Of a stretch of 64,000 bases of DNA, positions 43,439-46,193 are shown piece after piece. A model generated the notes under the pieces. The model did not search any database, had not been told where the DNA came from, and saw nothing but the letters and a program-made list of their open reading frames with translations. Origin of the DNA: Mugil cephalus (taxonomy: Eukaryota; Chordata; Actinopteri; Mugiliformes; Mugilidae); contig NC_061781.1 of the NCBI RefSeq assembly GCF_022458985.1, forward strand, positions 17,887,001-17,951,000, written 5' to 3'. Position numbers and translations under genes: made by a program. The number at the start of each line of letters is the position of its first letter. Position 1 is the stretch's first letter.

Positions 43439-46193
43439 TTAGCGTTTTCCACCAACACGGGGTGCACTGATCTTCATGGGCTTGGCGATCTTGGGTTTCT
43501 GTGCCGTCTTGGTAGAGGCCTAAGAAAAGGGACAGACAGACAAGTTAGACAAATTTAAAACTCAATCTAGTCACTGAATAATCAGGTCAGACATCAACAC
43601 TTCAGTATAGTACTGCACAGATTTAATGCAAAAGTAATCTCACCTTTGCACTTGGGGCTGCAGGCTTCTTGGCTGCCTGCTTTGCCTTCTTGGCCTCCTT
43701 GGCAGCTCTGAGAATGAAAAGAACCAAAATAAAAGGCTGCACATCTTCAAAAAAAGGATTTTTTTTATACAGGGATCTATTATTTGTGAATAAAATAATT
43801 GCAAAGAGCCAGTATAAACGAACAACAAAGCCAGTCAGACTTGTATGCGCGCTCAGCTTTGATTCTACTAAATTGATCAAACATTTAAAAATAAGAAAAA
43901 ACATTAAGGTGTAAGAACTACTAATTATGTCCAGTTTAAAACGTATAAGATCAGTCCAAAATTGTCCCCAAATGACATTCTCCTGAATCGTGGATTGCAG
44001 CCATAAGCCAATAATTTTACAACAACTACTATTCAACTTCTGAGTTTTAATAGATTTGAATCAAGTCCCAAATCCGTTGAATTCAGTCTGTCCTCTTACC
44101 TGATGGCCTGCTCCCTCTGGGCCTTGCGGACCTCGGGCTTCTGGTTCCTCTTGGCCATGATCTCAGCCAGGGAGGCCCCAGTGATGGCCCTCTGGAATTT
44201 CACTGCGCGGCGGGTACGCTTCTTTGTCACCTCTTCCTGTTGAAACACAGCAAACATTTGTTAATTTACATTGACGTAATTATGATGTTTCGATATGCAC
44301 TGCATGTCCATCTGCTACCCAACCATTTAGCTGATAATCTTCACTTTGGAGTTGTCTGGTTCAAATCAAAGTAAGAACAGAAACTTACAACCAAATCAAG
44401 TTATTCTAAATCTTTAGATGAAGAATTTAAATCTCCATCACAAACATCGCAACAGCTGAGTTTTAACTACAATTTTGGGAACAAGATTTCCCTTAAGAAA
44501 TGCTTAGATGGGAGCAACCGGGTAAACATTACTTCATAGAAGAGTGCAATCAGTCTAACCAGAGTCAGTTTGTGTTTTCTGATAACCTCCTCATCCAGAC
44601 AAAAATAAATTATTCCTCCAAACAAACATTACACCTAAGCTTTTATCAGCAACTAAACAAATACCCCAAACACTGCAGTATATTGAGGCAATCAATAGTG
44701 ATGGATAATGGAGTCTGCACCTGCACAGGTTAATTTCTTGCACTGCACTTTAAATATGCTGCATGAGCTACCCGCATCCTCTTGAAATACTGCATTTACA
44801 AGCACTAATTTAAATGAAATGATTACACAGGTGATTTAGCATGTCGGAGAGTTTGGAGGCTGACCAATGGTGAGATGTCTGTAAAGACGTCAAGGGCCAG
44901 TACTATGATCTCCAGTTGTTCTATGGCTACGGGTGTTGGCGTGAGCACTGCTGCCAAGGCTGCAAAACGCAGTCCGGCAACAGCACATAACACAGACTAA
45001 CACCGTGCACACCATTCACCTGTAGCCAATTTAGCATGTGGAAACTTAAACATGTGGCCTAAACAGAAACTCAGATCCATCCTAACTTTAGATTATAACA
45101 TGTGCTACTTTAAAAACCTGCAACGCATAACAGTTTCTCAATCACTTTCTCAAAAAGTGACAGCTGGACCAAGAAATTCAGCTTTTGACAGGCCCAAACT
45201 GCTCAGTATGTCAATACGAACTTAAAACCAAACATGTGAGTATATTTTATTTTCACACACAGGCAGATGTTACTTACAGACTGGCCCTTCTTGTGCTTGC
45301 GTCTGTACAGCACAGTCCAGTTGATCTGTCTGGGGTTCCTCTTGGCCAGGAAGGCAGACTCACACTTGGCGTTCAAGAACTGGAACACCTAAAAAAGACA
45401 AAAAAAACAAAAACAAAACACAAATTACTCATTAACAATTACAGTTGTGTCCAAAACCACTCCATCCTGCATGCATTTAATACAATTGTTTACCCCAGTG
45501 GTAAGCAATAATAAATAATTGTAAACACTGACTAGAGTTCTTGCATGAGTGTTATTGTATCCCTTCTTTATATTTAATGGTGAAACATGTATAAAACACA
45601 ATTTTGTACAGGGTCCTACTCACTGGAAACAAGCATTTAATGGTACATGTTCAAGTAATAGATTTGCCAATGTGTGTACTGACACTAGTTTTGACGTTAA
45701 GTCTGTAGGCTGCGAAAATATGTGTAAAATATCAATAAACTGAGATACAAGTCAACGTTATCTTGTTTAGTTGCTAGTTGACTATGATAGCAGCTAATGT
45801 TAGCAAGCTACATGCGATTCAACGTAGCGAACTGGGCCTGTTCCAGAGAGGAGTTTGGGCTGTTATTATATGCGTTAGATTGAGTTTAGAGCTAATAATA
45901 TGTATTTAATCCGGTATATTGTACTTCACACTGTATATGGAGACAAAACGAGTAAAGACCGGCGTCAGCCTTAGCTAAATTGTTACCTTTCCGTCTATCC
46001 TGGCGTATCGGCGGCCATGGCCGGGGTATATTTTATACCCGCTGAAACTGCACAAGTCGACCCTGAAAACGACAAATATAAGACATCACTGACACAGAAG
46101 TATACACAGATCTCATTAATGCCAATAGCATCTTTATAATGTTTATTTAAGAGTTTAGATGACACTTGATAGTATTCCATACACTCACTTCAT
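43439..46193 (-). CDS. rpl24: RPL24, 60S ribosomal protein eL24
   Basis: Minus-strand exons: 46193-46189 (ATGAA only), 46062-45987, 45388-45278, 44236-44100, 43707-43644, 43519-43439 (TAA). Total 157 aa, the same length as human. Sequence landmarks: [20 protein letters not shown] (N-terminal globular eL24 domain), [58 protein letters not shown], and the closing SAPRVGGKR. It is a structural component of the large subunit at the intersubunit face. Typical ribosomal-protein design: a first exon carrying only ATG plus two bases, and an upstream minus-strand pyrimidine run (CTTTCTTTCC near 46220-46229) consistent with a 5' TOP start. Intron 3 houses a candidate H/ACA snoRNA. It shares its promoter region with CEP97. 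Confidence 0.97.
44839..45005 (-). ncRNA. Candidate intronic H/ACA box snoRNA (predicted 28S helix 69 guide)
   Basis: About 167 nt in RPL24 intron 3, sense strand. The 5' hairpin has lower stem CGGTGTT/AACACC (45005-44999 with 44937-44932), then GTG/CAC. An 11-bp stem follows, GTGCTGTTGCC with GGCAGCAGTGC, fully paired only with G-U wobbles on this strand, and CTGC/GCAG at the tip. The H box ATAGAA is at 44924-44919. The 3' hairpin has lower stem TGGAGA/TCTCCG, a pocket of 8 and 9 nt, and upper stem CTGGCC/GGTCAG. ACA (44844-44842) is followed by three bases. Pocket-to-box distances are 16 nt (H) and 15 nt (ACA), inside the 14-16 rule. Pocket arms UCAUAGU and CUCC match ACUAUGA and GGAG around a uridine in LSU helix 69, as I recall it. 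Family not assigned. Confidence 0.75.
45389..45986 (-). other. RPL24 intron 2
   Basis: Non-coding, about 600 bp. I looked for C/D-box and H/ACA-like motifs here less thoroughly than in intron 3 and saw none that were convincing. Confidence 0.5.

Follow-up and report, generated by a model that had tools for sequence, protein, structure and literature searches.

A SNORA23 box H/ACA snoRNA in intron 3 of rpl24 of Mugil cephalus, a probable guide for 28S helix 69

Does the third intron of the ribosomal protein gene rpl24 of Mugil cephalus encode a small nucleolar RNA and, if so, to which family does it belong, which position would it modify, and is its host gene the one known from human? The stretch of DNA that we analysed (hereafter, the window) has a length of 64,000 bases and corresponds to C12:17887001-17951000, in a genome of 634,849,253 bases and 24 contigs. 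It contains the rpl24 coding region (43439..46193, minus strand), whose six exons encode 157 residues. The joined translation has no inner stop and aligns full length with the eL24 chains of solved ribosomes, and all five introns start with GT and end with AG. The host intron of the element studied here is intron 3 (44237..45277, minus strand, 1041 nt, GT...AG), where the element lies in the sense of rpl24, with 259 nt between the 5' splice site and its start, and 602 nt between its end and the 3' splice site. The initial annotation had proposed an intronic H/ACA snoRNA on the sense strand of rpl24, a proposal with which the gene model and the full-length family match described below both agree.

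The Rfam models of H/ACA families had been named as the check on this proposal, and the search of the window with Rfam covariance models gave a clear answer. SNORA23 (RF00319) matched at 44839-45018 on the minus strand with 93.1 bits (E = 1.2e-17), over model positions 1-184 of 184 and well above the gathering cut-off of 45 bits. No other Rfam match in the 64,000 bases exceeds its cut-off. Among the matches found between 42000 and 47500 at E up to 5, there is no H/ACA family other than SNORA23; two further Rfam matches in this region are far under their own cut-offs and were taken as chance. It is the score of the covariance model that settles whether the element exceeds chance. Since the match covers the model over its full length, the element is, judged by its sequence, a fish copy of the named box H/ACA snoRNA SNORA23 and no new guide. 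Its 3' end is the one annotated earlier (44839..45005), whereas at the other end the Rfam match goes on 13 nt past the former 5' edge, up to 45018.

The architecture of the element is that of its class. Read on the minus strand, as are all the features given here, it shows the order described in the initial annotation, i.e., hairpin, H box, hairpin, ACA, and three final nucleotides (UGC). In the Rfam alignment the lower stem of hairpin 1 is made of ACGG (45003..45006) on its 5' side and CCGU (44929..44932) on its 3' side, and three of its four pairs are changed on both sides relative to the consensus with pairing kept. Counting by eye on the sequence, we recovered the 11-bp stem of the first hairpin with its three G-U pairs, as well as the distances from pocket to box reported before, 16 and 15 nt. 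The H box (44917..44924) can be placed in two ways that both fit ANANNA, either as AUAGAA (44924-44919), 16 nt from the pocket, or as AGAACA (44922-44917), which sits under matching consensus letters in the Rfam alignment and is 18 nt from the pocket. The ACA box (44842..44844), present in the sequence and in the Rfam alignment, is 3 nt from the 3' end and 15 nt from its pocket. In H/ACA RNAs, the pocket usually lies at about 14-16 nt from the H or ACA box.

Across the 45 pairs of the consensus, 21 are the same in the fish element, 12 are changed on both sides and still paired, 5 are changed on one side and paired, 6 are unpaired, and 1 is a gap; as these counts set one sequence against a consensus, they are support and not a covariation test across fish. 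The two halves of the RNA are unequally conserved, with 53 of 95 consensus letters kept in the 5' half and 61 of 83 in the 3' half, and the stretch 44929-45006 of the 5' half is far less consensus-like than the 3' half. Because of this divergence, the 5' guide of the fish RNA may have changed. The stability of the fold is unremarkable (z = -1.53, with 13 of 200 shuffles at least as stable), and the energy computed for the plus strand (-58.0 kcal/mol) is below that of the minus strand (-51.9 kcal/mol), so energy does not decide the strand and we dropped it as evidence. On these two points the support for the initial annotation is less strong than it had claimed. The strand call rests instead on the match to the covariance model, the H and ACA boxes, and the orientation of rpl24. 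The minus strand favoured earlier from the pairing of the first hairpin is thus upheld, but by these features and not by the fold energy.

We then searched for the position that the 3' pocket would guide. Its left arm, UCAUAGU (44902..44908), pairs with ACUAUGA of helix 69, and its right arm, CUCC (44855..44858), pairs with GGAG of the same helix; the letters of both arms are those of the Rfam consensus. We scanned every U of four eukaryotic large subunit (LSU) rRNAs, of which two were complete, two partial, and none from fish; the sequences came from stray contigs of bacterial assemblies. They are the 4 loci examined among 15 that carry the helix 69 motif, and all 4 proved to be eukaryotic LSU; viral contigs had the motif in 0 places. 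The best site for the pocket was the helix 69 U in GGAG-UA-ACUAUGA in all four LSU rRNAs (7+4 pairs, score 25), as the initial annotation had predicted, and the next LSU site scored between 13.5 and 19. The presence of the helix 69 site is given by construction, because the contigs were found through its motif, and it is the ranking that constitutes the test. When the eleven letters of the arms were shuffled 20,000 times, a fit to the helix 69 U was seen in one shuffle, and a fit to any site of one LSU in 365. The single small subunit rRNA among the loci (L002) has no better site, its best one scoring 17.5. We take the helix 69 U, at the E. coli 1911 position, to be position 3737 of the human 28S. 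PMC6466398 lists human ACA23 for 28S positions 3737 and 4331, with IPO7 as the host, and PMC8178906 also assigns U4331 to SNORA23. The helix 69 target thus stands in the human list already.

The 5' pocket gave a less clear picture. Its letters differ in the fish from the Rfam consensus. For the consensus 5' pocket, the candidate guide for the human site 28S-4331, no site is common to the lists of the four LSU rRNAs, all non-fish, and the fish 5' pocket has only weak sites. One of these, in GGAGUUUGGCUGGGGCGG, occurs in all four LSU rRNAs with 4+5 pairs (two of them G-U) and a score of 20, and is the top site in one of the four. We did not accept it as the target of the 5' pocket, because vertebrate 28S presumably departs from it by a letter within the paired stretch.

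The location of the element in rpl24 differs from the human one, an intron of IPO7, although the latter is not a defining feature of the family. A DNA search of the genome returned a single copy, the one in rpl24. The same copy was the only one returned by a genome search with RF00319, which is not exhaustive because it scored 35 of 28,730 candidates; in this search, 4 of 14 control genomes had matches, all under the cut-off. With an importin 7 query, we found five exon pieces on C3 (best identity 86%) and two pieces on C22 (best identity 70%), which we read as probable ipo7 and ipo8, respectively. The ipo7 pieces include the start (query residues 1-33) and reach residue 1008 of the Xenopus chain (1038 residues), with the exons between partly traced. 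Five 10,000-base pieces of ipo7 and ipo8 searched with cmscan at E up to 10 gave 12 matches, all below the cut-off and none of them SNORA23, and 2,000 bases spanning the junction of two ipo7 pieces gave 4 matches at the same threshold, again without SNORA23. On the strength of these searches, the fish ipo7 is apparently without a recognisable SNORA23. A short-word blastn search with the element gave matches of 10-19 bases to the ipo7 and ipo8 pieces, and of 10-14 bases in the rest of the window. The earlier suspicion that the host is not the human one is therefore borne out, with rpl24 here against IPO7 in the human list and no SNORA23 in the fish ipo7 pieces. The accompanying idea of a mobile copy fared less well: the host does differ, but the genome searches returned no second copy.

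Two observations were made in passing around ipo7. About 15 kb past its end on C3, reading frames at L027:2071-2444 (plus strand) resemble what we take to be the C-terminus of a Tc1/mariner transposase. Exon-like frames adjoining the gene, at L027:8391-8618 and L026:4793-5077 (both minus strand), are presumably SWAP70-like. In human, SWAP70 lies near IPO7.

The closest known counterparts come from human, zebrafish, and chicken. Human SNORA23/ACA23, listed for 28S-3737 (PMC6466398), has in common with the fish element the full-length RF00319 match and the guide arms of the 3' pocket, and differs from it by its host (IPO7 instead of rpl24) and by the letters of the 5' pocket, which in the fish are off the consensus. 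In zebrafish, ENSDARG00000082611, which has SNORA23 in the ortholog column of PMC5397488, is likewise a fish RNA under the name SNORA23 and was counted in brain RNA-seq; the entry shows 7 in what appears to be the chromosome column of this source. Chicken GGgACA43 is entered in PMC2653536 as functionally homologous to ACA23. The entry describes it as intergenic and gives as targets 28S-3751 (5' pocket) and 28S-3816 (3' pocket), not the helix 69 U.

We are confident that the element is the fish SNORA23 in rpl24 intron 3, with a 3' pocket predicted to guide pseudouridylation of the helix 69 U in 28S. What the analysis shows directly is that the RNA belongs to SNORA23 and that its pocket fits helix 69; the processing, expression, and modification are expected by analogy with the family. 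SNORA23 would be spliced out with rpl24 intron 3 and then trimmed from the debranched intron. It would bind the H/ACA core proteins dyskerin, NOP10, NHP2, and GAR1, and its 3' pocket would pair with GGAG-UA-ACUAUGA of helix 69 and present the U for conversion to pseudouridine.

Other readings were weighed against the same data. The initial annotation had suggested a link to the U19/snR191 class, i.e., that another helix 69 guide had moved into rpl24. Such a guide would also explain why the 3' pocket fits helix 69, but the only family above its cut-off in the window is SNORA23/ACA23, already listed for human 28S-3737, no other H/ACA family was matched in 42000-47500 at E up to 5, and the letters of the pocket are those of the SNORA23 consensus. 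As only SNORA23 matched, we reject the U19/snR191 identity, and the reading as a whole is extremely unlikely. We also consider it very unlikely that the rpl24 element is a decayed or silent copy of SNORA23, the working copy being elsewhere in the genome. The 6 broken pairs among the 45 of the consensus, the diverged 5' half, and the 35 of 28,730 candidates scored in the genome search would leave room for it. Yet both genome searches gave the rpl24 copy alone and the ipo7 pieces gave none; neither the guide arms, the ACA box, nor the spacings are disrupted, and 12 pairs that differ from the consensus on both sides still form, a pattern that argues against decay.

It is, finally, highly improbable that the element is SNORA23 by descent and that its 3' pocket, or the RNA, serves a target other than the helix 69 U. 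In favour of this, the entry of the chicken counterpart names 28S-3751 and 28S-3816 (PMC2653536), and the LSU rRNAs that we scanned are non-fish. However, the guide arms are the same as in the consensus and the helix 69 U ranks first in four LSU rRNAs out of four, in line with a helix 69 guide.

If the element is the SNORA23 helix 69 guide, as we think, then its host changed in one lineage, since the human gene is in IPO7 and the only copy found here is in rpl24. We put forward, tentatively and with some doubt, a broader scenario in which, within vertebrates, SNORA23 relocated from one of the two genes, ipo7 and rpl24, to the other without leaving a second copy, the helix 69 guide came to be made together with a ribosomal-protein mRNA, and the 5' pocket diverged until it had a new target or none at all. 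It is possible that the rpl24 host is specific to fish. In the open-licence literature, we found no report of a snoRNA in a teleost rpl24 intron, nor of SNORA23 together with RPL24, although an rpl24 host may still be reported elsewhere; PMC6954239 has no mention of ipo7, rpl24, or snora23. The RNA itself is ordinary, and the difference in host from human is a modest, mildly new point. This fish thus encodes a conserved helix 69 guide, and the locus offers one clear example of a fish and human differing in the host gene of a snoRNA. Such examples help in annotation and in following how snoRNAs change hosts; this one does not amount to a new system.

The surroundings of rpl24 can also be compared with those of the human gene. 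Beside it, on the plus strand, lies an IQ motif, followed by neurexophilin and NXPE C-terminal domains (49464-50150, 55578-56510, and 57898-58488). We take these neighbours to be cep97 and an nxpe gene, in the order found on human 3q12, and the locus would therefore be the orthologous rpl24 locus. Near the ends of the window lie a rhodopsin-type GPCR exon (7tm_1, 1309-2169, plus strand) and a malic-enzyme exon (Malic_M, 62169-62543, minus strand).
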